Of a stretch of 64,000 bases of DNA, positions 3,001 to 64,000 are shown piece after piece. A program made the translations under genes and the position numbers. Source of the stretch: Rhyzopertha dominica. Taxonomy: Eukaryota; Arthropoda; Insecta; Coleoptera; Bostrichidae. The DNA is taken from the NCBI GenBank assembly GCA_025024175.1, contig QCXZ01000138.1:558002-622001 (forward strand), read 5' to 3'. The number at the start of each line of letters is the position of its first letter. Positions within the stretch are counted from its first letter, which is position 1. Below the pieces are notes generated by a model, which saw nothing but the letters and a program-made list of their open reading frames with translations, did not search any database and was not told the DNA's origin.

Positions 3001-5214
3001 TCAAATAAATCAGTGGATTTTGAATGCCACCGAAAGGAACGAGGAAAAAGTACACAAAAGTTCATGTCGAAGAGACAGAAACTTTATTAATAGCATAGAA
3101 GACAGGATCAGAATGTTGAAAAACTAAATGGGGCAAAATAAACAAACACAACATGAACAAATAAACAGTAACATTAAAAACAAGTAATTAATTATAAATC
3201 TATAGACCAAGCAAAAACTCCTCTCACTTTAACTTTAACATTGGCCAAAGCCATACGTTGGGGCCTTTTAAAAAAACTGCTTATTAACCATCGATCACAG
3301 AGTTTCAATATTAAAAAAAGGTTATTAATAAACAACTAAAAATGCAAATTATATATGTAAAATTCAGAAACTTTAAATTATTTATGCAGTTCAAAACATT
3401 AGATAACGAAAGGTTGAATTTATTTGTTTTTTTTTACAGTTTAGTTACAGTTTATCATTTTTTCTCAGTCACACACACAGTGTGAAATCCTTCATACTAT
3501 GTAACAAAAATTTGATGAAGAGTTTTACTGAATGACGGATGATAAGATTTTTAAAATTGTTTTCATTTTTTTTTGCAGATAATTTTTTTGTAACTACTGT
3601 AACAAATGTTGAAATTTAACGTAGCTCAACTCACACATAAAAGACTAATCGTATTAAAAACATTTTTTCACTGTCAAACGCTTAGGGGGCAAACCATTCA
3701 CAATGCGACCTACACAATGTTACATGGATGTCACTTCTACTGAAAACTTGTCTAGGAGAATATCCTATGGTTATATCCTTCCAGACGTTTTAAGAAGTTG
3801 CTTAGATTAACTTCTACCATGCATGACAGCTTTGCTGCCAAAATACATACATATTTGTACTCTACATTATTGTAGTAAGTTTTCTCAAATTCTGTAATTA
3901 AACTAATCACGAACTGACGACTAACTGGTCCACATGTTTTTGGTTGAAAAATCTAGCGGTCACACTGGCACACATGTTATTTTCATAGTACAGTTATACT
4001 AGTTCACTTCTTTGTTCTGAGCTGCAAACTATTATAAAAATTGCAGGTTTTTATTTTATTATTATTTTATTACAGATAAGAATATCTCTTAATCCATCCA
4101 TACTAGAAAAAACTTGTTTACAATTTGGATGAGAGTGTTCCGGATGCGCAATTGTGAAAATTTAAACGAGCCTTAAACAATTTTGTGATTCTCTAAAAGG
4201 GTGGGTCAAATTTGACAAAAAACATGATTGCATAGCAAGTAAAGCAGTTTCGAGATGATGATACTCAATCCTTCTTGCTACTTAAATTTTTTGAATTGGT
4301 GACTGGGCACTAGAGTGATGCAGAAATAATTTTGAAATTATGATAAAATTTGGTCCCCCTGCAAGTCAAAATTGGCCTGTTTCATCATTTTTTCCAAACT
4401 TGGACAAAATGAGAGTTTTTAGTGCCTGGTGCCTAAAGATATTGAAACACAACACAAATTTAACAGTAATTATGTGATCATAAGTCCAACTGACTTACAT
4501 ATATTTAAAAAATGATAGTGGATTAATTAATTTGCCAAACCACAATTCCTGTCATAATTTGTGATAGTCTTTCAAATTACATTTACAGAATAGTACTATT
4601 TCACCACTCACATATAGAAGTGTAATTACTGTTGTTTATGGCGTAGGTCTTCATCAAGATCAAGGTCGAGATCGATATCACCTTGGTATCCAAGGAAACA
4701 GCGCAGTGTTGACCGTGATCGTTTGCAAGAAGTTGAAGAACGTAGAGTTGTCTATGTTGGTCGCATTAGTTATTCCACGACTCGTGAAGATCTTCGAAGA
4801 CGTTTCCAAAGATTTGGCCCGATCACAAGTGTCAGTGTGCACTTCAGAGAGCATGGGTAGGTTGCCTAAAAAGCATGGAGCGTCAGAAACTAAAGAGTTT
4901 TATTTTCAGAGATAATTATGGTTTTGTGACATTCTTAAATAAGCTAGATGCTTATGAAGCAATGGAACACGGAAATGATGATCCCTTTTATCCAAAGTAC
5001 GATTTAAGTTTCGGGGGTAGAAGAATGTTCTGCAGGACGAGTTATTCTGATTTAGGTACGTTAATAAATGAAGTGGTATTTGTATGTATTTATTGTTTTA
5101 TTTATAGATAATATGCATGAGGATATTGGCTGTTATCCTGCTGAAGAAGCAGAAGATTCCTTTGACAATTTGTTACGCAAGGCACAAGAACAAATCCGCA
5201 AGAGGAAGCTTTGA
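1..5214 (+). CDS. srl: PGC-1 family transcriptional coactivator (Spargel-like), 3' part, 6 exons
   Basis: A nuclear coactivator of mitochondrial and metabolic genes, recognised from its C-terminal half. Coding exons are 1-208, 1077-2208, 2269-2331, 4647-4856, 4910-5055 and 5108-5214. All introns are GT-AG and all phases agree, giving 621 visible codons plus TGA. The frame is open at base 1, so the N-terminus lies upstream of the window. An LxxLL nuclear-receptor box (LNSLL) sits at visible residues 5-9. A charged, low-complexity middle is followed by an RS-rich stretch (about residues 435-485). The RRM begins at RVVYVGRI (about 500) and has the RNP1-like NYGFVTFL (about 541). The tail FDNLLRKAQEQIRKRKL matches the conserved PGC-1 end. 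The RS plus RRM plus tail order is diagnostic of the family. Whether it is single-copy, and its true start, cannot be seen here. Confidence 0.93.
2332..4646 (+). other. Intron 3 of the PGC-1-like gene (2.3 kb), no feature recognised
   Basis: AT-rich intron bounded by GTAAGT at 2332 and TAG at 4644-4646. I see no conserved coding, RNA gene or transposon protein in it. The 868-bp intron at 209-1076 is likewise featureless. Confidence 0.7.
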
Positions 5215-11830: not shown

Positions 11831-14010
11831 CAAAATAAGCTCTGAAGATGGAACATATACTTTGCATCTGCAGTAGATCTTGGGACGCATTTTTGCCTAT
11901 GTGAAGACCAACTAACTGACCCATCTGCCATAACACTAATGTACCCAGTTGTTGAACGACGACACAAGTGTCCAGATCATATGCAAATAAGGCATAGAAG
12001 AAAACTTTTAGTCGAATGATGCTCCATGTGTACTTTATTCTTGTATTATTAGTTCCCTGAAGGTACTTGAAGATGGTTCTCACAGCTAACCAATGGTCTA
12101 TACCAGGATTATTTAGGAATCGACTAACTTGACTCAAAGCGTACATTATATCCGGCCGTGACACAGTGGCGATAAACATTACACTTCCTACAGCTTCCCT
12201 GTATCGTTTCAGTTTCATTTCTTTCCTGTCTTCTTCCTCAACTGGACACTAACCACTATAAAGAGGGTTGCTTGCGTTCAATGGTACTGCATTCGACTTG
12301 CAATTTCCCATGTTAAATTTCCTTATTGTACAAGTGTATCCGAACTGACAAATAAATGTTCCATGTTTATGACGATGATTGATCTCTAAACCTCAAAAGT
12401 ACTTTCCAACGCCAATTGCGTAATCTCAAAATATTTTGCAATTTCACTGAATAAACTATTAATTACATTAACTGACTTGCAGATAGTAAGACTATCATCA
12501 ACATATAAAACCAACTGGCTGAATCAAAAATTTGTGCGGCAATTTGCAAACTTGATTCCAACAACGAAGTGATAGTTTTAATCTTTTCTTTTTTGTAACT
12601 TACAGAATAATGCCTTATTTTTATCTTCAAAACCAATTGGCTGTTGCATATAAACTTCTCCATGAAGTTCACATTATATGTAGCAGCTACATATAATGTT
12701 CTTATGGAAGTATAAAAGTACAACAGGGGCAAAAGTCTCTTGAATATCAACACCATCTTGCTGTGATGCCTTTGGCACCAAACCTTGCTTTAAATTATCA
12801 GTTGTACCATCAGGTTTCAGTTTTACTCCATCCAACAGTTTTACTTCCTGGTGGCAAGGGTACCAATGTCCATGTTTTATTGACCTTCAGCGAGTAATTT
12901 CATCTTTCATTGCCCTGTTCCAGTGCTCTGATGAACTTGAAGACATTGCCTCTTCGAACTTTAATAGTTCATTAACAATTGCTGCACATGCTACAAAATT
13001 TGAATCACGGTAACGAACAGGTAGATTAACTGCATCACGATTCCTTAAATCCCTTGTATTTTCTTCTATTAATGGAACCATCTTCGTTCTCTTTTATATT
13101 TTCATCTTCTGTAGATATTTCATTTTGCTCTTCTGCATCAGTAAGTAACCATTCGAAAAATACATATTCTTTAGAATTCACATGATCTGAGATATTTTCA
13201 TTGAAAACGACATGACGTGAAATTATTATCTTGTTAGTTTCAGCATCATACAGTATAAACACTGCTACATTTGTCATAACTAAACATAATCATTTTCTTT
13301 GACTTATTTTCAAATTTTCCACGAATTGGTTTTGTATACACCATATAACATGAGTGCAAATCAAATTTCCTCAGGTGACCGAAAGACGGTTTATTAAACC
13401 ATTGCTCATATGGTGTTAAATCACCATTGGCTTTATATCCTCTTCTGTTTAACAGGTAGACAGCTGTGTTCACTGCTTCTGCCCATAAATTTTCTGAAAG
13501 ATCGGTATCAAACAGCATAGATCTGGCACTTTCCACAATAGACCTGTTGTCTGTCCATTCTACTCTGCCATTTTATTCAGGTATGTAAGGACTTGCAGTT
13601 TCCTGAAATAATCCGTTTATATACTCTTCAATTATCAGTACGCAGCCGCAGCACGTCTACTTTGTTACCAGTCCGTCTCAATCATCCTTTCAATTTCCAG
13701 AAATGTAGAAAAAGCATTACTTTTGTTCTGTAAAAGAAACGCACAAATCGCAATGAACTGCAGTCATCCTTTAAGGTCATGAAATAATTTGCCCCACCAA
13801 GGGACGCAATTGGCATTTTTACACAAATATCTGTATGAATTGCCTCCCCGGTCGCTCTTGAATGAAGGTTGGACTTGAATTATTCTCGGTGGATTTTTCC
13901 ATACTTTGTCAGCCAATTCCTTTAAGGTCTTGAAATTCACGTGCTCTAGCCGTTCATGCCAACGTAGAACAGAATTGCTTGTTACAAGATTTGCTTGCTC
14001 CAGAATGCTT

Positions 14011-14147
14011 TGGTATATAAGCAAAACCAGTTCTATATGCCGTGCTGTCTACACTAGATCTAAACTGCACTGATGAGCTGTAATGACAGCGAAATAGATC
14101 TATCTGCAGTTGGTTGAGGTGTAGACAGCACAGCATAGACATGCATT
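14011..14147 (+). mobile_element. Small hammerhead-bearing repeat, copy A
   Basis: About 137 bp starting near GCTTTGGTATATAAGC and ending near ACATGCATTTTA. It is shared with sequences at 22.13-22.26 and 23.70-23.85 kb, and in inverted form inside 23.31-23.70 kb. It interrupts the copia pol frame and encodes no protein. Its conserved core is the hammerhead described in the next entry. Boundaries are inferred only from where the copies stop resembling each other. Confidence 0.75.
14038..14135 (+). ncRNA. Type I hammerhead ribozyme, copy A (intact core)
   Basis: Core CTGATGA is at 14070-14076. Helix II is 14077-14081 paired with 14086-14090 (5 bp, loop AATG). GAAA is at 14091-14094. Helix III is 14094-14096 with 14101-14103 (3 bp, loop GATC). 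The predicted cleavage is after C14104. Helix I pairs 14063-14069 with 14105-14111 (7 perfect pairs). An 8/7-nt internal loop (14055-14062 and 14112-14118) separates this from an outer helix, 14038-14054 with 14119-14135 (16 of 17 pairs). All invariant residues C3, U4, G5, A6, G8, A9, G12, A13, A14 and H17 are present. The internal loop in helix I facing loop II is where natural hammerheads make activating tertiary contacts. A very short helix III is known from Penelope-like elements and retrozymes. Confidence 0.88.
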
Positions 14148-14960
14148 TTAATATTTTGTAACACTGATTTTGGAGTTTTATATCTTATTTGTAACCTTCA
14201 ATTTTGGGACACACAGCGTTTCTTCTAATGTCCGACAATGCCATTTGCAATGTACCAGAGCCATAACTTTAACCGTACCAATTCCTTTAGCTTCAACTGA
14301 TGAATTGTCTCCAATTTGTACACTTATGATTTTCTCAATCGGTTCCAGAGATGCAAACCATTCTTTATGAAAGGTCATATGCTTTGAAGGGGCACTATCT
14401 GCCAACCAAATATCGTCACAACCAGGAACTGTAACATTTTTGACCTCTGCACTTGATTCTGTGTGTTATGATTATCTTCAACGTTTCTCTTTGCTATCAT
14501 TTTGCAACAGTGAGCCTTAAAATGCCCTCATTTATGACAGTAAAATGTTGTTAAACGGTATGTAAGTTTTCATATTTTTGGGTCTAAATTTCACTTTGTT
14601 CAAACTCACAGCAGCAAATGCTGTTGAAACTTCGCTTATCTGTTCTAGATGCTCTTCGTCTTTCAATAGCCTTGCAGTTAAATTGTCAAACGGTTGCATT
14701 TTCTCATCATATGAATCATGCCATAGTGAAAGAACCACATCTCCAACTGTTTCTCAGACATCTGCTAATGCTTGTGGCATAGCTTCAATTTTACTTATGT
14801 GCTGTGCAATTGTATCTGTTTTAGACATTTTGTAACTGAAGAACGTTTGTTTCCATGTAATTTTACTTACCGCTGACCTTTGCTCGCGTATTATCTTTAA
14901 GCGTGACTACATTCCCATTGCATTGTTAGATGTAATTGCAGTCTGAAGCTGTTCAAATTC

Positions 14961-15758: not shown

Positions 15759-18700
15759 TTAGATTTCTAAAATAAATGCTTTCGTATCCATCGGACATAG
15801 ACCTATATTTTCTTCTACTTTGGTCTCTCTTACATGAAGGAAACTTAGTGATGTTTGATGCATACGCCTTACGTGCTGCGCTACAAGGGAACTGACGTTT
15901 ATCTGAAATAAAGGGTAATAAAATATATTTCAAACTCTAAACAGTAATATCTAACCTGAGATCCTGGGTTTAAGGGAAACAGCTTGAGTATGTCTGCATC
16001 AGCATAGCAAATATCTAGATGTTGCCGATGAATAGCTATACCAGTATAGAACTGACCACTTACATATATATTATTTCTTATAATTGGTACTACAACATCA
16101 ACACCCAAATTATTCCCAATGTTAACATTATTGGGCCTAATAATGCTCTCCTTACAATCGATCATTTTGATTAAAGGATGTAAGAGAGTTTGGGATAGAG
16201 TGTGGGTTACTACTGTTTCAAATCCAGAAAGATGATCATCTGAAGTTGTCTGAAAGATGAAAAGTTGCATTTGTATTATTACATTAAAACTTGCTAATTT
16301 GTTGAGAAATGTTGAAGCATTAGGACTAGTTAATGATTGAACATGTCTGTAATCAAATACCAGCTGAGTCTTTGTACAGCAATCTCGTAAGAGAAGATGA
16401 ATTCAGTTTGAATTAATATTCAGTTGTCGTTTAGTCCTGAAAATGACAGTAAACAAGTTAACAACAGTGAAGAGATAAATTCCTATAGCATTAATATTTT
16501 ACTATATTCAAGCTATTGTAAACATGCCCGTATCACATCCGATTTCCCTCACTTAACACACAAAAGAAAAAGTATGATAGATACTATTTAAAATAATGTA
16601 AATGAGATGAGATCTACGTCCAAAAACCAGCTATCGTGCTATAGCTCAGAGGCTGGGAGTTCACTATACCACAGTATCTCGTATTATTTCACGTTTTAAA
16701 GAAACTAACAATTGCAACCGTTGTCATGGACTAGGAAGACCTCTATTAATAACAGCGAACCACGATCGTTCCATTTTATTGCGTGGTCTGAAACAACGNT
16801 TTGTAACATCAAGAAATCTCCAAGTACAACTTAATGGTTCTAATAATGTCCAAACAAGTGTGGCTACTGTAAGCAGGCGTCTTAAGAAGCAGAATTTGAG
16901 CTTCGAAGTTCTTGCAAGAGAACCGATATTAACGGCAAACCATCGTCAAACGTTACTGCAGTTTGCTCGACATGTGGATTGGAATCTTGAGGATTGGGAA
17001 CGTGTCTTATTCACGGACGAATCCAGGTTTTGTCTATATAACTGCGACCTCCGCGTAAAAGTTCTCACAGCCAAATGAGTGTTATGCACAATGCAACATT
17101 TTTTGTCAAATCGCCCCATTTAATGGGGTTCTGTAATGATTTGGGGAGGGATTTCTTTGACAGCTCGAACAGAACTTTACTTTACGCGGAGATAATTTGA
17201 CGGGTGATTGTTACATTAGAGAAATTTTATCTCAACATGTTGTCCGCTTTGCTCCTTACATCGGCAATAACTTTTTTTTACTTACATGAGGTGGATAGTG
17301 AGACTAGACTGGCCTGCATGCAATCCTGATCTAAATACAATATCACATTTGTGGTATAATGTGTGTAGACAACTTAAGAACCATCAGCCACTGCCTACCT
17401 CTCTTGATGACATTGGAAACATAATCATGAAAATATGGAAGATTGAGCAAGACCAGATTAGATGGCTGGTTTCATGTATAAGCAAGTGACGTGAAGCTGT
17501 TATTAGGAGTAGAGGTGGCAGTACGAGATATTGATTTTTTCGATCTTCCTTGATCTTATTACAGTTCTTGTTACCTATAGGTACTGTTTTTGTTGTAGTA
17601 CTCTTAAGATTAATTTTGTTGTTGTATATTAAATAACTGGTATATCTAAAACTGTGTATTTCCATTAATAACAAAGTATTGGCGTGAATAAAAAAAGAAA
17701 ATGTTTAGGAAAAATGGGGCTATAGTTTAATTCCAACTGACATCTGCAATTGTAGGTGTAGCTACAGCTGAAACCAAAGATCAGTAAAATCGGATTAGCC
17801 ATTCGAGAGAAAATCCATTTTAAAATTGTAGTCATTTCTTAGTGGTGTATATTCGGATTTACATGTAAAGGAAAACAAATAAATCACCTGAAAATTTATT
17901 TTTGTGGTCTTAATGCCTTAAGAAGTTGGTCCCAAATATGTACTTGTGGAAGGCTTTACTGTATACCATATACTTACGGTAGTTTTGCTTTTGCTTTGAT
18001 TGCCTACCTGACAATATGGCAGTTTCTTTTCAACGACAAGTTTAAAGACATATTTTGTTGGAAGGTCATTCCAAAAGTTGTCTTCAGCATTATGAAAACT
18101 GTCATGAGCAATGTTGTGACCCAGGAGAACCTGCATACGACCTTCTTCAATTAGTGTAACTCCTGTGGGACTGGCTGTGAGCAAAGTGAAGCGAGTGGTA
18201 TCATCTTCTATGTAGGATGTAGTGGACATCGGGTAGAAATTACCCTGCAGTGGTATTTGTGCATGTCTCTCGCGCCTTGTGATCTGTAATATATTTTGTC
18301 TATATAATGCTTAATAATTATAAATAAGCTATGTTTATATGTTTAGAATTAAACCGTTTGTGCATGTACCAGCATGCTAAAATTAATCGTCTTGTTTTGT
18401 TATTTCAAAAAGGGGTAGTTTACTGTTGAAGCTTAAAAGATGAACGGGATTCCACGGAATTAACGGATCTATTTCGACTTTTAGTGTACTGAGTAGCTGT
18501 TTTATTGTATGCTGTAGTGGCTAAACAATTAGCACTCTTCTTGTTTCTCACTTTAATGACCCTTTTTAAGGATTGTATTTGATGAAAAATTTTATATACT
18601 TACTGCAAGTTTGTAGCTAATTTTTAGCTGGTGATAAAATCTTATGTAACAAAAGTGATTATTGTTTATAGTTGTGAAATGTATTAAAAACTGATAATGG

Positions 18701-21700: not shown

Positions 21701-24700
21701 TCACATTTCAGGACTGTGTATTATCGCCGTGCATATTGTAGCTTGGCAGCAGTTACAAAAAGGCGGCACAAAGAATTCAGAAATCAACGCCGCCCGCGTT
21801 GCGTTGATCATTTATAGAACTAGGCCGTTCATTACATTATAGTTATGAACGGCCTAGTATAGAAGCTCTGTATAATTGCCGTTTACGAAACAGTCTATGC
21901 TTTTCTGTTTGAATTTGTAGAATAGTGATTTAAATAGGAAAGCTTCTCCATTTTTTTTGAGAAAACTTTTGTGGTTATGAGAAAAAAAGATCCTGTATTG
22001 TATTTTGCTGTTTATTAATTCTTATATAGCTATGCATAGAACTGCTTTCAATTGCTAGTAGAAAAAATAGGTGGCAATGGTAATCTGTCATCAATGAACT
22101 GACACATCGACAAAGCCACCTAACATCATGTCAAGCTTTTGGTATATAGGAAAAACCAGATCTATGGCATGCTGTCTGCATTAGACATAAATTACACTGA
22201 TGAGCTGTATTGGCAGCGAAACAGATCTATCTGTAGTTAGTATAGCGTATACATGCATTTTTGTCTTTCAACTGCGGTTGGTACATGGTACATTATTCAT
22301 TTTTCAGTTTCTAGCCTGCTGTCTGCAGAAGTAAAATGTAGGCCATTTATTAAATATGTTAACATGAGTGTAACAAGCAGAGTATAAAAAAAATACTTAC
22401 AAAGGTAGTTGCCCTGGTGACACAGATGTAACACAGTAAGTTGATAAGCTTAGTGCTTGTAAATTCACTATAAACGTCACTCGATAGTAAGCACTGAAAT
22501 TAATAAATCCGTCTTTAAAATAGGGAGAAATTTGTGCTTGTTTGGTAGTTCCATTGCAATCTGTAACCTGTTATTATTTTTAAAATCCTTTAAAGGTAAG
22601 AAGTGTTACGCTTACCTTCACGAATCGTGTAGAAACCATGTAATTAACCACTTCCACTCTTCTGAACGTTAGAGAATTGAATATTACTATCCTCTTAGTT
22701 TCGCCTTCCAGCAAGTTTATTTCTCTTTCATACAATACTGTACCATTATAAAAGTGAATATCACTTATATCAAAATGCTTGGCTGTATTAGAGGAGTTGA
22801 TACCAGGTTTGGAAAGAAAACGTTGTGTACAGAACTGTGTGACGTAATAAGACTTTTCTAAAGCTCGGAATAGGCTGCAAAATATTGTCTGTTAAATTTA
22901 ATTTAAAATTTTAATAAATACGAAAGGAGTGTTTTCATTCATGTCTAAAACTGTTTAAATGTATGGAAATACGGTAATGCTCGAATGATATATTTATTAG
23001 ATTAATACGTCAATACGAGTACAATTACAACAGTTGAAAGGAAAAATAGGATAATGAAACCAAAAAGCATGAAAAGACTTATTTTTAACTGTTTTTTCCC
23101 AAAATAAGACGAATAGTTTATATAAACATATATTGTAAAACGCTTCGTTTACAAAACAGAGTGTAAGGTAAGTTAACGGGTTTTAACTAATCTTTCCCAA
23201 ACGTATAGAGACAAGGTAATGAATCTAGGCGTAATCCCATAACATTTATGCATATTTTGAAAATCCATAAAGTAACGAATACAATTTGTCCATGAGTATT
23301 ACCACAATAAGTAAGAATTTAGATGGCAATGCCATCTGTCAGCATTACACTGACATGATGTACTACTACTTCCTAAAGGAAGTGACCTGTAGCCTGACAA
23401 ATTGGCATGCAACTACATACTTCAATTTGACATTAAAATGCATGTCTACGCTGTGCTGTCTGCACCTCAACCAACTGCAGATAGATCTATTTCGCTGTCA
23501 TTACAGCTCATCACTGCAGTTTAGATCTAGTTCAGACAGCACGGCATAGAATTGAAGTATGCAGTTGCATGCCAATTTGTCAGGCTACAGGTCACTTCCT
23601 TTAGGAAGTAGTACCCGTTAAGGCAGCTAGCTGGCTTTGTCATCATGTCAGTGTAATGCTGACAGATGGAATTGCCATCTAAATTCTTACTTACATCATA
23701 CCATTGCTTTGGTATATAGGCAAAACCAGTTCTATACCGTGCTGTCTGCACTATACCTAAACTGCACTACTGAGCTGTAATGACAGCGAAATAGATCTAT
23801 CTGCAGTTGATTGAGGTGCAGAGTGCAGACAGCACAGCATAGACATGCATTTCATTACCATAATAATTTTAAAAAATCCAAATAAGAGTTTTTAGTATAT
23901 AGTTTAGAACTTTTTTAGAAGTTCTGGGACTATTTAAAACTTGCTTAAACATTTTATATACATGTAGATAAGATAGAAAATATGTCGTTATGTATATAAA
24001 CCGACATATCTAAAACGGTTTTAAGTGGCAGCGTATTTTCAATTTCTGAACATAATAATATTTTCGAAATCTATTGCAAATGTTTAAGACCGAGAAAGAA
24101 CAATAAATGTGAATTTATTTTGGTATTAAATCCGATTGTAAACCTCCTTTAATGGGGCAATCTAGCATTAAGAAACTAGGAAATATGTCACTCCAATTTT
24201 TGTCCTTATTTAGAGACTTAATGAAAAAAATATTTAAAAATCCTAGGTACAAACCTTTTTGCGTAATAGCTGAAGACGTGATCTTTGGCAGTTCCTGAAA
24301 GACCATCATGGTGTTGGAATAAAGCTAGCGATCTTCGTGCGTCCGTCACATATGTTTCCAGATAAACATATTCCTGAGATGAACGTTGCAATTTACTGTG
24401 TAGGAGAGACAGCGATAGCAGTATGTCTGCAGACCTACGTTGTGTTGAAGATAACAAAAAAGTAGATGAATTAAATAGCATCTACATCTCTCAATACATT
24501 CTAAACCACGAAATGTTTAAAAATAAAATTATAACTTTACCTTACATATGCCATTAATATCCTATCAAGTCTTTTAAAGAAGGATCTTGACGAGTAACAC
24601 CCACTCCAATATTGACCATATAAGCTGGCATAAGTAAAGAAGTCGCCAGACAAACTAGGAAACGCTTCCACAGACTTCGCTTCCTTTACGACATCAAAAT

Positions 24701-39895: not shown

Positions 39896-40129
39896 TGTAA
39901 CACGTGACAACGCCGCCAACATGCCAGCCAATCGCTGCGCATAGCCGCCGGGATTTGACTATTCCAATCGTTTTTCTTTCAATAGACACATGTCATATAT
40001 GTGCTGTAGAACACGCGAGTACGCGGTAGTTCAAATAAAGTTTTGTTGAATTTCATCAGTGTGTCGTGTCATTCTTTATTTTACCAGCAAGCACTTGCAT
40101 TAATTTTGTGTGGCACCCTCCGTGTTACA
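39896..40129 (+). repeat. 5' LTR (234 bp)
   Basis: Starts TGTAACACGTGACAACG and ends CCTCCGTGTTACA. It contains AATAAAG near its middle (about 40037), a likely polyadenylation signal. It is identical by eye to the 3' LTR. Confidence 0.95.
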
Positions 40130-40132
40130 TAA

Positions 40133-40150
40133 ATTGGCGACCCAACTTGG
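40133..40150 (+). other. Putative primer-binding site of the Gypsy element
   Basis: TTGGCGACCCAACTTGGGCC begins about 4 bases inside the 5' LTR, where minus-strand primers anneal in LTR retrotransposons. The tRNA was not identified. Confidence 0.5.
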
Positions 40151-40271
40151 GCCTAAGTTCCCAAATAGCAGTGAAATACTAGTTGAAAAGACAGGTGCAA
40201 ACACGCCGAGAAAACGTGTGCCTCGCCCCTCAGAGCCCCCTTCGCTGGAGCTGCGATCTACGGATGCAATC

Positions 40272-42656
40272 ATGGATCAACAACAGCCCTCTACTTCGAA
40301 TGTGGTAATGAGCAATCAACAGTTCCAAGACTTGCTTCAAGGTATTTTAAAAATGACAACACCCGTGACCACGGTTGAGCCGTCTGCAACGCAACATTCG
40401 GTAAGTGGAAACTTTTCCAAATGTCAATCGAGATTCGCTGGTGACAAAACCGAAGACGTAAACGCTTTTATAGACGCTATTACGGTATATAAAGAGTGCA
40501 TGAACATTTCCGATGCGAACGCGTTGAAGGGTTTGCCTATGCTATTGGACAAACTAGCAGCAACATGGTTTTGTGGCGCAAAATGTAATATTGCAACCTG
40601 GAACGATGCATTAGATGGACTTCGTCATGTGTTCGGACATAAAGCTCCACCGCATCGCATTTTTAGACAATTGTTTGCCCGCGAACAAAACAGTGACGAA
40701 CCAACGGACGTATTCGTTAGCGAATGCCGCGCTCTCCTCGCGCAGTTGCCAGACGCACCGCCGTTGCACGAAATACACAAACTTGATATGGTGTACGGAC
40801 TACTGAATAGGAAAATTCGAGAGAAGTTGCCTCGCGAACAAATTAACGATTTCAACACGCTAANTAGTAAAGCGCGTGCTATCGAGGTTAACCTTCACGA
40901 GTCATCTTATACCACGCCCGTGCAGAAGAGAAAAGTAGAAAAAACTCAGAAGATGCGCCCGCGCTGCGATTTCTGTAAAGCTTTCGGCCACGTTCAAAAC
41001 GAATGTAGAAAATTCGCTGGCAGTAATACGAAGAAAACGCAAGAAAACATTGTTCGTCCTGCCGTTACCTGTTTCGGTTGCGGTAATCCGGGATTCGTCA
41101 GGAGTCAATGTCCTAATTGCCAACGTAAAGGTACGACGCCGCGTAACGAAGTTATACGTGAAACAATCTCGGACAACGTTGAATTAATGTTTACGAGCGC
41201 TTCTGGACCAGAAATACAGGATCTACGTCCACTTATATTTATTTCTGTACAAGGCATGTCAGGTTTAGCGCATGTTGATACTGGTGCAAGACACAGCATT
41301 GCAGGTCAGAAGTTAACCCAAAGAGTGTTGAGCTCCAATTATCCACATTGCACAACAACAATGAATATGGTGTTAGCAGATGGGAAAAAACGTCTCATAC
41401 AAGCTATAACGTTTACAACTGTTATAGAGCTTGCAGAACGACCAATTGAGATTGGGTTCATTGGTGTACCGGATCACGTGAACAGTAAGATGTTGCTAGG
41501 GATTGATTTCATCAATAAAGCTGGAATGGTGCTCAATCTAGCGCAACACACATGGTGGTTTAACGATAAGCCCAACGAAGTACGCGACTTCCGTCGTTTG
41601 ACACAAAGCAAAGATGTGACAGTGCTGTCGACATTAAGCATTGAAGATGGAGAAAGTGTACTGAGAGGTAGAGAGAAGGATCAATTCGACCAACTCTTGC
41701 AAAATAACTCCGATGTTTTCGCTAGTAGTGGACCCCCTACGCCTTTTGCTCAGCATGTCATCAAGTTGACCGATGAGATTCCAATTGCAGTACCACCGTA
41801 CCGAATGTCGGAACCGAAAAAGGTAATTCTGCGTGAACAGCTAGATGAATTGCTAGAACAGGATATCATAGAGGAAAGTGAATCGCCCTATGCTGCTCCA
41901 ATAGTATTGGTGCCCAAAAAGGATTCAGGATTTAGAGTCTGCATTGATTATCGCCGTTTGAATGCCAAAACAGTACCAGATAGATACCCATTACCGAGAG
42001 TAGAAGACCTGTTGCATGCTGCCAAACAGTACAAATATATCACAACGCTTGATTTGAAATCAGGGTACTATCAAGTCGAGGTAAGGCCGGAGGATAGGGA
42101 CAAAACCGGTTTTATCACTCCTTTCGGAAGTTTTCGTTTCAAACGTATGCCATTCGGGCTACGCAACTGTCCATCAACTTTTCAGAGATTGATAGACCGA
42201 TTTAGAGCAGGATTGCAAGATATAACAATCTTGGCTTACCTTGACGACATGATGATATTGTCGACAAGTTTCGAAGAGCACTTAAACGATCTTCAATGTG
42301 TGTTCGATCGCCTAAGGTTGTTCAAATTAAGAGTGAATGCCAAGAAGTGCCGATTTGCCCATTCTCAAGTCAAATACCTTGGTCATCTAATCACTCCTAA
42401 CGGAATAAAACCCGATGACGCTAAAGTAAGCGCAATTATGAATATGAAAGAACCCCGTAATGTTAAGGAATTGTTAACATTTCTGCAAACCTGTTCATGG
42501 TTTAGACGATTCGTAAGGAATTTTTCAGAAATTGTCCAACCCTTAACTACACTAACTCGTAAGAATGTCACATGGAAATGGGGAGAAGAGCAAAAGACAG
42601 CTTTTCAAAGACTTAAGGAAGCTTTAACNTCCGAGCATATATTAAAAAGCAGCTGA
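40272..42656 (+). CDS. Gypsy Gag-PR-RT polyprotein (first part of gag-pol)
   Basis: The start is chosen at the ATG at 40272 (MDQQQPST), after the primer site; the frame is open further upstream into the LTR. Gag ends in two zinc knuckles, CDFCKAFGHVQNEC (about 40970) and CFGCGNPGFVRSQC (about 41070). The protease has HVDTGARHS (about 41275). RT carries PYAAPIVLVPKK, CIDYRRLN, TLDLKSGYYQV, MPFGLRNCPSTFQR and the YLDD active site (about 42240). The frame ends at TGA 42654 because one extra base in an A run near 42640 shifts it; the sequence just upstream holds an N at 42629. RNase H continues in the next frame. The break may be a real mutation or a sequencing error. Another N lies at 40864. Confidence 0.9.
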   Translation: MDQQQPSTSNVVMSNQQFQDLLQGILKMTTPVTTVEPSATQHSVSGNFSKCQSRFAGDKTEDVNAFIDAITVYKECMNISDANALKGLPMLLDKLAATWFCGAKCNIATWNDALDGLRHVFGHKAPPHRIFRQLFAREQNSDEPTDVFVSECRALLAQLPDAPPLHEIHKLDMVYGLLNRKIREKLPREQINDFNTLXSKARAIEVNLHESSYTTPVQKRKVEKTQKMRPRCDFCKAFGHVQNECRKFAGSNTKKTQENIVRPAVTCFGCGNPGFVRSQCPNCQRKGTTPRNEVIRETISDNVELMFTSASGPEIQDLRPLIFISVQGMSGLAHVDTGARHSIAGQKLTQRVLSSNYPHCTTTMNMVLADGKKRLIQAITFTTVIELAERPIEIGFIGVPDHVNSKMLLGIDFINKAGMVLNLAQHTWWFNDKPNEVRDFRRLTQSKDVTVLSTLSIEDGESVLRGREKDQFDQLLQNNSDVFASSGPPTPFAQHVIKLTDEIPIAVPPYRMSEPKKVILREQLDELLEQDIIEESESPYAAPIVLVPKKDSGFRVCIDYRRLNAKTVPDRYPLPRVEDLLHAAKQYKYITTLDLKSGYYQVEVRPEDRDKTGFITPFGSFRFKRMPFGLRNCPSTFQRLIDRFRAGLQDITILAYLDDMMILSTSFEEHLNDLQCVFDRLRLFKLRVNAKKCRFAHSQVKYLGHLITPNGIKPDDAKVSAIMNMKEPRNVKELLTFLQTCSWFRRFVRNFSEIVQPLTTLTRKNVTWKWGEEQKTAFQRLKEALXSEHILKSS

Positions 42657-44721
42657 CTCTTCACTTCCGTACATTTTACGCACCGACGCTAGTGCGTATG
42701 CACTGGGTGCAGCTTTACTCCAGGGGGAGTCACCTCACGAAGAGAGACCAGTAGAATATGCGAGTCGATTACTCTCGCCCGCCGAGATGAACTACTCGAC
42801 AACAGAACGAGAAGCACTAGCGGTAGTATGGGCCGTAGACAGATTCAGAGGATATCTGGATGGTGCGAAAGTGCTAGTTCGATCAGATCATCAACCATTA
42901 AGATGGCTACTATCCTTGAGATCACCAACTGGAAGATTGGCCAGGTGGGCTCTTATACTACAGTCTTTTGACGTAGAAATTGAGTATACTCCAGGAAGAT
43001 GCAATTTAATTGCAGACACTCTAAGCAGACCGCCAAAGTTCAGTACAGAAAATGAAGTCTGTACAGTGATTGCCGAGCTGCCTACCAAAGGAACCGCTGA
43101 AACTAGGCGCGAACAGATCGAAGACCCTGAATTGAAGATTGTGATAGACAGTCTAGAGAACTCCGACCAACATGATGAAACAGATGTAACAAGATGGACA
43201 GATCGTGGATATTTTATGCTAAATGGTGTGCTTTATCGTTTTTCACCCGACTCAGATAGTGAAGAAGCACAATTAGTTGTCCCTAAGTCTTGCATAACCG
43301 AAGTATTGCAAAAGTATCACGATTCAGAATTATCTGGACATTATGGTGTCGAGAAAACTCTGCAAAGAATCGCATCCCGATATTATTGGATGGGTATGAG
43401 GAAAAGCGTTACTGACTACGTAAAGGCCTGTATTGAATGCCAACGTTATAAACCGAGTAATGCGAAACCTGTTGGTTTACTCCAGACCCCAGTACAATCG
43501 CAAAGGTTTGAAGTTTTGTCGATTGACCTTTTTGGTCCACTGCCCGAAACCTCAACTGGAGAGAGATGGGTGCTAATAGTAGAAGACATCGCCACCGGAT
43601 GGGTAGAACTGTTCCCATTAACTGTAGCAACAGCGGAAGCTTGTGCTCGATGCCTAATAGACGAAGTGATTCTTCGATATGGAACTCCCCGTAGAGTCAT
43701 TAGCGACAATGGAAGCCAATTTGTAAGTAACGTAATGCAGAAAGTTGCACATTGCCTAGGTTTCAAACAAAACCTTGTGCCATTGTATCATCCACAAGCG
43801 AATCCTGTGGAGCGCAAGAATCGAGACCTGAAAGTTCAACTATCAATGCTAACGCAAGGAAACCACACTGCCTGGAAAGCCGCACTTCCTAGTGTCAGAT
43901 TCGCAATGAATACGGCCAAAAGTCTTACGACCGGTTATACGCCTGCATATTTAACCTTTGGAAGGGAACTACGTACACCCGATGATGTACATCGAGACCT
44001 ACGAGCTATCGTGTCCGCAGAGACGTTTGTACCTCAAATCACTCCTTATCTGCGACTAATGGCTCGAACCTNGCATAAGTCCAAGGAAGAACACGAGAAG
44101 AGGCAAGATTTGTCNAAGAAGCAAGCCGACAAAAGGAGACGACCTGGGAAACCCTATCGTCCAGGAGATCAAGTACTGGTTGTTTCACACACACTCAGCA
44201 GCTCTTCACAAGGATACACATCGAAGTTTGCTCCCCGCCGGGATGGGCCCTACATTGTGCTACAACAAATGTCTCCCACCACGTTCCAGCTAGCAACACT
44301 TCAGAATCCCAGGGATTCCATCGGTGTATACCACCAATCTGCTCTGCAGCCTTATGTGTGCCGGAATGATGCGGCGCCCGCCCCAGTACGCCCTATCCGC
44401 AAAAGAGGCCGACCGCGTCGCGATGCCTCCTCGAACTTTCGTTATGGTGCGCGAACATCCAACGGTACCGTACAGCGCAGTGAACGCGAGCAAAGTAGTG
44501 CCGGTGCCGGACCGACCAAAGCATTCGTTAGCCCATCAACGTCAGCCGAGATGACAGCACCCCAACATCCATCTCTGACAACTCCACGCCACCCAGTTCA
44601 AGAGAGTCCAGCTCCGCAGCGAAGAACTTCGCCACGGCAGGCGAGCGCCTCAAACTCCGGTTGCCTGCGTTGTCCAGGATGTCAACCTAAGAAGAAGTTG
44701 GTCCATTCCCGTGGACGTTAG
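42650..44721 (+). CDS. Gypsy RNase H-integrase (second part of gag-pol)
   Basis: The frame opens at about 42650 and the first ATG is at 42787. RNase H has RTDASAYALGAALLQG and YSTTEREALAVVWA. The integrase zinc domain is HYGVEKTLQR to KACIECQRYK (about 43340-43450). The catalytic triad is in LSIDLFGPLP, ISDNGSQF and NPVERKNRD, with 34 residues between the second Asp and Glu. The C-terminus is Pro/Arg-rich with RKRGRPRRD, an AT-hook-like motif. It is not an independent gene but the continuation of 40272-42656. N bases fall at 44072 and 44115. Confidence 0.9.
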
Positions 44722-45007: not shown

Positions 45008-45044
45008 GAGACGTTTCGGAAGCGGCCGCTTCCATCTTCAAGTC
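45008..45044 (-). ncRNA. Penelope-type hammerhead-like motif (degenerate)
   Basis: On the minus strand TTGAAGA (45041-45035) stands where CTGAAGA is expected. A bulged T and a perfect 6-bp helix II follow (GGAAGC 45033-45028 with GCTTCC 45023-45018), then GAAA (45017-45014) and CGTC with C at 45010. The layout, including the bulged T, is the same as the motif inside the Penelope-like element at 63.1 kb. C3 is changed to T. The surrounding 45011-45215 may be a Penelope fragment. Confidence 0.5.
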
Positions 45045-63019: not shown

Positions 63020-63838
63020 AAGGGTTTCCGGGATTGGCTCCGCGTTGTCATTGGTTGGTTCTCCTCTGAACCTTGGAATCGACGACGTTTCGGCACGATC
63101 TCACGTACCATCTTCAGGTCTTCTTGCTGCTGATCCCGCTGCTGCTGCTCTGCTCCGTGTCACACGGCTTGAACTGACTTCCGTTGCGATAGATGGCGGT
63201 ATATATACTCGTCGTGTGTTACGCTTGACTGACTCCGTTGCTCCCTTGCGTTGACTTTGCGCTTGATTGGTTCCGGCACGATTCGGCGTCTTCCTAGTAA
63301 TTGCACTGAGAGCTGGCTTCCAGGTGGCTGGTAGTCTTTGTGTGTCATCTCTGGTGTTTAAGTTGTTTGGTCTTCTTTCTATCTCGATGGCTTCTCTAAT
63401 GATGCGTTTGGTCTTGTGTTCTATGCTCGCTATGACTTTAGTGTTGCTGAAGTCAATTTCATGCGACGTCGTTCTTACATGTTCTGCTAAAGATGATGTT
63501 GATTCCATTTTTCGAACTGCATTCCGGTGTTCTTCGCGTCGTACGTTGATACGTCTGTTGGTTTGACCAACGTAGCTGCCCTCACAGTCTCTGCATGGAA
63601 TTTCATATATCCCTTGCGCTTCTAGTTCTACCTTGGTTTTTGTGTTCGGAAGTATCTGGCTTATTTTCCTTGCAGTGGTAAATGTGGTCGCGATCTTGTG
63701 TTTCTTTAGCACCTTGCTGACTTTTTCTGTTGTTCCTTTAATGTACGGTAGATAGGCTTTGGCGACTGGTTTTTCTTCGTCTTCTGTTGGCTCCCTCTGT
63801 CGACGTGGTCTTAGCGCGCTTCTGATGTCGTTTCTCTC
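63020..63838 (-). mobile_element. Penelope-like element, GIY-YIG endonuclease part and 3' end
   Basis: The minus strand reads REPTEDEEKPVAKAYLPYIK, VSKVLKKHKIATTF, then GIYEIPCRDCEGSYVGQTNR and REEHRNAV, SSLAEHVRTTSHEIDF and IREAIEIERRPNNLN. The GIY and YVG motifs, the CxxC between them and the conserved Arg and His identify the C-terminal nuclease of Penelope-like retroelements. The RT is not in this arm. A hammerhead-like motif lies at its 3' end (63117-63081). The copy is 5'-truncated at a palindrome centre near 63851. The first 35 or so residues of the long frame ending at 63943 come from the opposite arm and are artefactual. Confidence 0.85.
63080..63120 (-). ncRNA. Penelope-type hammerhead ribozyme motif
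   Basis: The minus strand has CTGAAGA (63117-63111), a bulged T, helix II GGTACG (63109-63104) with CGTGCC (63097-63092; one G-U), and GAAA (63091-63088). Helix III could be 2 bp (63088-63087 with 63083-63082) with a triloop. The cleavage C would be 63081. Helix I pairs poorly (63118-63123 with 63080-63075 has two mismatches). Minimal hammerheads at this place are an established trait of Penelope-like elements. Confidence 0.65.
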
Positions 63839-63863
63839 GAAGCCGTTCTGCTGTAGTGCTGTA

Positions 63864-64000
63864 GAGAGAAACGACATCAGAAGCGCGCTAAGACCACGTC
63901 GACAGAGGGAGCCAACAGAAGACGAAGAAAAACCAGTCGCCAAAGCCTATCTACCGTACATTAAAGGAACAACAGAAAAAGTCAGCAAGGTGCTAAAGAA
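63864..64000 (+). mobile_element. Second, inverted Penelope-like copy, running off the window
   Basis: A perfect reverse complement of 63702-63838 (137 bp) separated by 25 bp. It encodes the same GIY-YIG-upstream peptide (PVAKAYLPYIKGTTEK) on the plus strand. The copy continues past 64000. Confidence 0.9.

Follow-up and report, generated by a model that had tools for sequence, protein, structure and literature searches.

Metazoan non-LTR retrozymes have been described as tandem repeats with a type I hammerhead ribozyme, a monomer of 170-400 nt, low GC content (<45-50%), no LTR, many copies and target-site duplications of >4 bp (Cervera and de la Pena 2020, PMC7229834; this and the papers below are cited for the portions consulted). 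The same source leaves open which element moves them, naming Penelope-like elements (PLEs) as a strong candidate. For PLEs that contain an endonuclease (EN), the reported anatomy comprises arms in head-to-head orientation, one end longer than the other, two start sites of reverse transcription, duplications of ~8-13 bp and AT-rich targets (PMC3846280, PMC11167929). Such anatomy is seen in rotifer Penelope, for which fold-back on antisense RNA was suggested from palindromes at the junctions (PMC3846280). The protein of a lizard PLE cleaves both strands and extends each of them, with starts at two sites within the RNA, and the PLE tail is the span between these sites; the tail is optional, being present in a fraction of genomic copies, and in vitro the start site was the same for both strands, with no difference seen (PMC11167929). 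Minimal hammerheads without helix III or loop contact, likewise of type I and located within a retroelement, are known from PLEs (PMC7761336).

The repeat analysed here, from the beetle Rhyzopertha dominica, shares with the described retrozymes the listed properties, the tandem arrangement being present in some of its inserts, and it also has no long ORF. It differs in that most of the inserts read are head-to-head with two recurrent unlike ends, if the tandems of PMC7229834 are taken as head-to-tail. Arms, the longer end on one side, the two start sites, the duplications and the AT-rich targets are as in EN-containing PLEs; unlike those, the repeat is without protein and without similarity to the PLE inserts read in this genome, and on its monomer a distance of 156 or 194 nt separates the two start sites, compared with the 30-40 of the PLE tail. 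By description alone it can also be likened to pDo500 of cave crickets, reportedly a family of satellite DNA (PMC2837043), in that a hammerhead resides in a non-coding invertebrate repeat. These sequence features support its assignment to the metazoan non-LTR retrozymes, that is, to the non-autonomous animal retroelements. It is a new family within a known class, and the insertion anatomy is the part that we found undescribed: head-to-head retrozyme inserts did not turn up in the literature searched, which is weak evidence of absence, subscription papers lying mostly outside the search.

The window, meaning the whole 64-kb stretch of DNA analysed, contains a single match to a strict type I hammerhead descriptor (exact core; a minimum of 5 pairs in helix I, 4 in helix II and 3 in helix III), at 14070-14104 on the plus strand, with 7, 5 and 3 pairs, respectively. 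None of 300 dinucleotide-shuffled windows matched this descriptor, in agreement with the sequence-only reading that a chance match is very unlikely; the bare core pattern, with 5 matches in the window against 1.7 expected, is far weaker evidence. C17 is position 14104, and the cut is therefore predicted between 14104 and 14105. The helix placement bears out the 8/7-nt internal loop between helix I and the outer helix, and the outer helix itself, previously given as 16 of 17 pairs, is present and slightly longer (18 of 19). For the RNA 14030-14145, the computed fold energy is -49.2 kcal/mol (z -5.96), and none of 200 shuffles was equally low. The earlier observation of a complete type I hammerhead thus stands confirmed at the level of sequence. 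The Rfam search that it had proposed returned no family at gathering score anywhere in the window; the top match, RF02275 (Hammerhead_HH9), scored 26.8 bits where the cut-off is 52 (E 1.2e-4 for a search over 401 bases). The window motif differs from the minimal PLE hammerheads (PMC7761336) in having a 3-pair helix III and a loop placed facing loop II. Positions of all features are collected in Table 1.

Table 1. Hammerhead, retrozyme copies and interrupted gene in the window (M, position on the 350-nt monomer)
Feature	Position	Strand	Basis or remark
Outer helix, 5' strand	14036..14054	+	19 nt, 18/19 complementary to 14119-14137; covarying pairs
Internal loop, 5' side, 8 nt	14055..14062	+	located between placed helices
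Helix I, 5' strand AACTGCA	14063..14069	+	descriptor; one covarying pair
Catalytic core CUGAUGA	14070..14076	+	descriptor
Helix II GCTGT/ACAGC, loop AATG	14077..14090	+	descriptor
Core GAA	14091..14093	+	descriptor
Helix III, 3 pairs, loop GATC	14094..14103	+	descriptor
C17, predicted self-cleavage 3' of C17	14104	+	descriptor match
Helix I, 3' strand TGCAGTT	14105..14111	+	helix placement
Internal loop, 3' side, 7 nt	14112..14118	+	located between placed helices
Outer helix, 3' strand	14119..14137	+	complementarity; covariation
Retrozyme copy carrying the hammerhead, M206-M350, one arm, outer end ...CATTTTAAT at 14152	14006..14152	+	BLAST with monomer, 98% identity
TATA-like stretch GGTATATAAG within the repeat, possible promoter	14012..14021	+	sequence reading only
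Interrupted Copia-type gene, part before insert, Pol_BBD profile 1-67 of 81	14178..14465	-	Pfam PF22936, E 8.9e-17
Interrupted Copia-type gene, part after insert, gag_pre-integrs profile 20-45 of 67	13764..14048	-	Pfam PF13976, E 3e-6
Second insertion, left arm M46-194 then M228-350, outer end M194	23308..23554	-	BLAST
Second insertion, right arm M50-346, outer end ~M346-350	23550..23852	+	BLAST
Third, diverged copy, minus arm ~22069-22122, plus arm ~22120-22261	22069..22261	both	BLAST; relatives found genome-wide

The repeat unit could be delimited from one locus (L006), in which same-strand copies are spaced 350 nt apart; this defines the monomer M, which ends in ...GACATGCATTTTAAT and has its predicted cut at M302/M303. 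Its GC content is 0.437. On the ribozyme strand the longest stretch between stops measures 58 codons, on the opposite strand 98, so there is no long ORF and no coding capacity for a reverse transcriptase and GIY-YIG endonuclease. As a circle, the monomer is predicted to fold at -132.7 kcal/mol, compared with -92.8 (sd 5.7) in 60 shuffles. Together with its 759 genomic cores and the repeats at its flanks, the length of 350 nt, the 43.7% GC and the lack of a long ORF support the idea of a small protein-free repeat like the animal retrozymes.

Within the window, the hammerhead belongs to a 147-bp copy whose outer end is common to other copies and which is without clear target-site duplication. 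This copy interrupts a Copia-type gene; the PF13976 match on one side of it has 27.4 bits, slightly below the cut-off of 28.4, and the open frame of that part extends into the repeat. Since ~33 profile positions are absent between the two Copia pieces, part of the target appears to be gone, and such a loss may explain why no duplication is visible. The second insertion (23308-23852) is two-ended and has a 13-base flank repeat with 1 mismatch, as read by eye. Another one-arm retrozyme copy (M206-350), found at L062:2612-2756, starts at M206 as the window copy does; it is flanked by AATTCATG and lies ~900 bp from a GIY-YIG match.

The window has further features of its own. An LTR-type retroelement at 40110-44721 (plus strand) has RT, RNase H and integrase domains across two ORFs and a GC content of ~0.44, above that of its surroundings, and a Tc1-type transposase fragment (HTH_Tnp_Tc3_2) is present at 16611-17078 (plus strand). 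ORFs at 1046-2233 and 4618-4860 (plus strand) resemble a PGC-1/spargel-type gene with an RRM, the RRM being matched in Pfam. TTAGG is the usual insect telomere repeat; an exact (TTAGG)6 array had 0 matches in the assembly.

Searching the genome for further copies, as had been proposed, revealed a large dispersed family. In the organism's own assembly (479 Mb, 138 contigs), the exact 38-nt core occurs in 759 copies, divided 373 to 386 between the two strands; the reversed control occurs in none. A young-copy query had at least 44 genomic matches (40 scored of 1829 first-look candidates), and a query with the diverged copy (22125-22265) had at least 42 (40 scored of 1488 candidates), among them the query itself, the rest being 80-91% identical to this query. 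CTGATGA...GAAA is retained in 63 of the 73 young copies compared, a share biased upwards because some loci were picked by exact core match. The core pattern had 0 matches in viral and 0 in prokaryotic contigs, which says little on host range.

We examined covariation in 30 sequences: the window copy, the diverged copy of the window, 20 relatives found with the diverged query (L094-L113, a few of which resemble the young form) and eight young copies. Double-changed pairs are seen both in the outer helix (A-U in 17 and G-C in 9 rows at one pair; G-C in 17, A-U in 7 and G-U in 3 at another) and in helix I (A-U in 18, G-C in 10, G-U in 2). The covariation expected by the sequence-only reading exceeds that of shuffles on three of five measures, in each case with 0 of 500 shuffles as high: double-changed cells (32 vs 14.5), the covariation score (0.137 vs 0.103, and no more than 0.059 when slid) and paired cells (91.3% vs 89.5%). 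On the other two it is not above shuffles, namely pairs with a double change (7 vs 5.6; 97/500 as high) and further pair types (25 vs 26.2; 457/500 as high). Since the double changes mostly divide two subfamilies, many rows rest on few events. One outer-helix pair, the site of the C-A mismatch of the window copy, is unpaired in 20 of 27 rows.

The sequence-only reading recognised the retrozyme repeat and missed its head-to-head architecture, which became apparent once insertions were mapped. We analysed 60 loci, 40 from the young-query search (L001-L040) and the first 20 of the exact-pattern list (L069-L088), with boundaries set by BLAST and by eye; the total sample comprises 65 of at least several hundred loci. 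In 39 of the 60, the insert is inverted: its left arm reads on the minus strand, its right arm on the plus strand, and each outer end falls at one of two recurrent sites. These ends are unlike in 38 of the 39: according to BLAST, one is at M347-350 and the other at ~M189-205 (the right ends of L007 and L029, placed by BLAST at M201 and M205, were trimmed to ~M196). The M350 end forms the left border of 20 inserts and the right border of 18; the single insert with like ends (L079) has two of the M194 type, and none has two of the M350 type. The remaining 21 loci consist of four that are head-to-head with one end elsewhere (L017, L018, L027, L076) and 17 others that have a single arm, are truncated or could not be read clearly; the window copy is one of these 17. 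L093, with a minus arm of <30 nt, was left out of the counts. The young query spanned ~M220-350 and could thus bias the ranking, which was countered with 25 loci from the exact-pattern list: 15 of these are two-ended, 14 of them with unlike ends. The five of these 25 that lie outside the 60 include two two-ended inserts, both with unlike ends.

The flanks point to target-site duplications of ~10 bp. Counting up to 6 nt inside each end, a flank match of at least 7 bases was found in 34 of the 39 inserts, compared with 140 of 1482 mismatched pairs; 5 of the 39 are without such a match. The matched flank letters are 79% A+T.

The inner junctions are scattered. After dropping pieces that were <30 nt or nested in others, 59 loci yielded 44 head-to-head and 0 tail-to-tail junctions (three loci that repeat other loci or the window, L001, L041 and L042, were excluded here and from the divergence and shared-variant counts). 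Overlaps of at least 2 nt, indicative of microhomology, are present at 28 of the 44 junctions, compared with 16% of simulated ones, and at 12 of the 44 there is instead a gap of 1-18 nt. Arm starts lie within 3 nt of the ribozyme cut in 1 of 88 cases, with 1.8 expected. Tandem copies, which the sequence-only reading suggested looking for, do exist in the sense that an arm exceeds 350 nt in 11 of 38 inserts (the longest is 893 nt), but most inserts are not simple tandems. The absence of a start cluster at the cut, together with arms longer than one lap, argues for a template that is unbroken across the cut site, either a circle or an uncut multimer. Arms often begin at M46-49 (L022, L074, L077, L078, L081, L084, L088), and 5 of 88 junction ends, plus those of one-armed copies, lie within 3 nt of M46; this position is perhaps a stop of reverse transcription or an RNA 5' end.

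Comparison of laps and arms within insertions was informative in one respect and not in another. Leaving out BLAST pieces of <88% identity, laps differ at 169 of 4120 positions and arms at 266 of 6590 (~4%), compared with a mean of 0.044 between different insertions. We take this divergence to be mostly a matter of age, and lap identity did not discriminate as a test of rolling-circle copying. Shared rare variants, however, are more frequent in laps (1.95 per kb) and arms (2.91 per kb) than between insertions (0.51 per kb), with resampling p values of ~0.01 and 0.0002, respectively, pairs being taken as independent. This excess favours one RNA source for both arms, although gene conversion could mimic the signal.

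We also asked what the PLEs of the same genome look like. A search for GIY-YIG, the PLE endonuclease, gave at least 144 matches (150 scored of 2080 candidates). Of 22 pairs of neighbours separated by <10 kb, 20 have the minus-plus orientation; the other 2 are minus-minus, and none is plus-minus. The six PLE inserts read were picked as close minus-plus pairs, so that their head-to-head form is a result of selection; their ends were not part of it, and in 6 of 6 one end is tail-less (about ...AAGAAAAATTAA) and the other ~40 nt longer. A flank repeat of at least 7 bases was detected by script in 4 of the 6 (control 8/30) and by eye in the other two, in L065 with a mismatch. No significant similarity connects the retrozyme monomer with the six PLE inserts; the same holds for 20 other GIY-YIG loci, except for the separate retrozyme copy in L062.

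An Rfam search with E-values on 16 PLE loci detected no hammerhead, its four matches being to microRNA families and all within one inverted repeat of L065, and a regular expression for the complete core gave one doubtful 3-pair match in PLE loci L043-L068. Motifs of the CGAAACGT type occur at several PLE-like ends, where the partner resembles CTGAAGA or is degenerate. In a PLE family common among the loci read (L063-L068 and others), GGTCGAAACGTC is kept and TTCGACAAAG replaces the CUGANGA side of the hammerhead, so the ribozyme of that family may be lost. The window itself has, on the minus strand near 63093, a CTGAAGA...GAAACGTC stretch that we take to resemble the minimal hammerhead of Penelope-like elements; it is located by a 280-aa ORF (63101-63943) with no Pfam match. 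A second stretch, CTTGAAGA...CCGAAACGTC, is present on the minus strand near 45019 and, being almost identical in the GIY-YIG locus L057, is probably another PLE end.

The unlike ends, the head-to-head arms, the ~10-bp duplications and the parallel with PLEs indicate that the retrozyme works like a PLE at insertion, while the lack of protein and of detectable similarity to the PLE inserts read means that it is not a PLE. The explanation that in our view best accounts for the whole, with a probability of roughly 0.7, is a retrozyme inserted by a PLE-type protein that primes from both strands. Genomic copies would be transcribed, the hammerhead would cleave the transcript at M302/M303, and the unit would then circularise, by analogy with published retrozymes. 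A Penelope-type protein would then make a staggered cut of roughly 10 bases in AT-rich DNA, as the flanking repeats suggest. We infer that this enzyme uses both cut strands as primers for reverse transcription, at two RNA sites: of the two free 3' ends in the target, one would start at M350, within the upper portion of a predicted hairpin, and its counterpart at ~M194. Each cDNA would run 5'-wards, sometimes beyond one lap, and the two would join at short matches to give outward arms between target-site duplications.

An inverted structure could also be produced by fold-back, that is, by self-priming on antisense RNA. The head-to-head form, most frequent in rotifer Penelope (PMC3846280), is the rule here, and the arms start within 20 nt of each other at 4 of the 44 junctions (L002, L011, L072, L074), which could be fold-backs. 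However, fold-back copies one template end twice, so that the outer ends should match and the arm starts should adjoin. Instead, nearly all inserts have unlike ends, the PLE inserts are one-tailed without exception, and neighbouring starts are no commoner than chance, 5.2 being expected if they were uniform; we consider this origin quite improbable. It is slightly easier to imagine, though still unlikely, that a LINE-type enzyme moves the repeat and that the inversions are ordinary twin priming, which likewise yields inverted arms and microhomology. LINEs are abundant in this genome (at least 150 endonuclease matches, 150 scored of 975 candidates). Yet LINE inversions affect a minority of inserts and have a variable second priming point, whereas here both outer ends recur and inverted inserts are in the majority. 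Moreover, neighbouring LINE-type endonucleases are on the same strand in 9 cases and on opposite strands in 0, which is a weak control because this domain sits at the 5' side and is often lost, and it is the PLEs of this genome that share the anatomy.

Inverted arms between ~10 bp duplications are also reminiscent of fold-back DNA elements, so that the repeat might be a DNA transposon of this kind or a MITE, with the hammerhead as a passenger. This is very unlikely, as the two outer ends differ in sequence, arm lengths vary freely and sometimes exceed one lap, and the inner junctions are scattered and show microhomology. A more serious alternative concerns the template, which might be an uncut multimer transcribed from tandem genomic copies, leaving ribozyme and circle irrelevant to mobility. 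The lack of an arm-start cluster at the cut would fit this, as it would fit a circle; laps of one insertion are overall no more alike than different insertions; and hammerhead mutants left insertion in vitro unchanged (PMC11167929). On the other hand, rare variants are shared between laps and between arms at 4-6 times the background rate, as would be expected of one recopied small circle, and published animal retrozymes make abundant circles (PMC7229834). On balance we regard the uncut multimer as doubtful, but it deserves to be kept in mind. As for a chance motif or plain satellite DNA, the missing Rfam match at gathering score is what could be said for it, and the possibility is excluded for practical purposes by the shuffled windows (0/300), the 759 exact cores, the covariation and the flanking duplications.

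The recurrent unlike ends, head-to-head arms and ~10-bp duplications of the repeat, in common with PLE inserts of this genome, constitute genomic evidence for a link between PLEs and retrozymes, a link that could now be tested using a single protein and a single small RNA. As to how PLE-type inverted inserts arise, the data speak in favour of priming from both target strands and against fold-back self-priming. The strand and tail results for the lizard PLE imply that strict pairing of ends need not be general (PMC11167929). It is tempting to speculate, tentatively and at somewhat less than even odds, that animal retrozymes are short non-autonomous partners of PLEs, and that one RNA circle is copied from both strands, each with its own start site. 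If so, the near-strict pairing of unlike ends, in this retrozyme as in the PLE inserts read, would reflect an ordered two-site priming complex; to our knowledge, no other retroelement is known to insert in this way.
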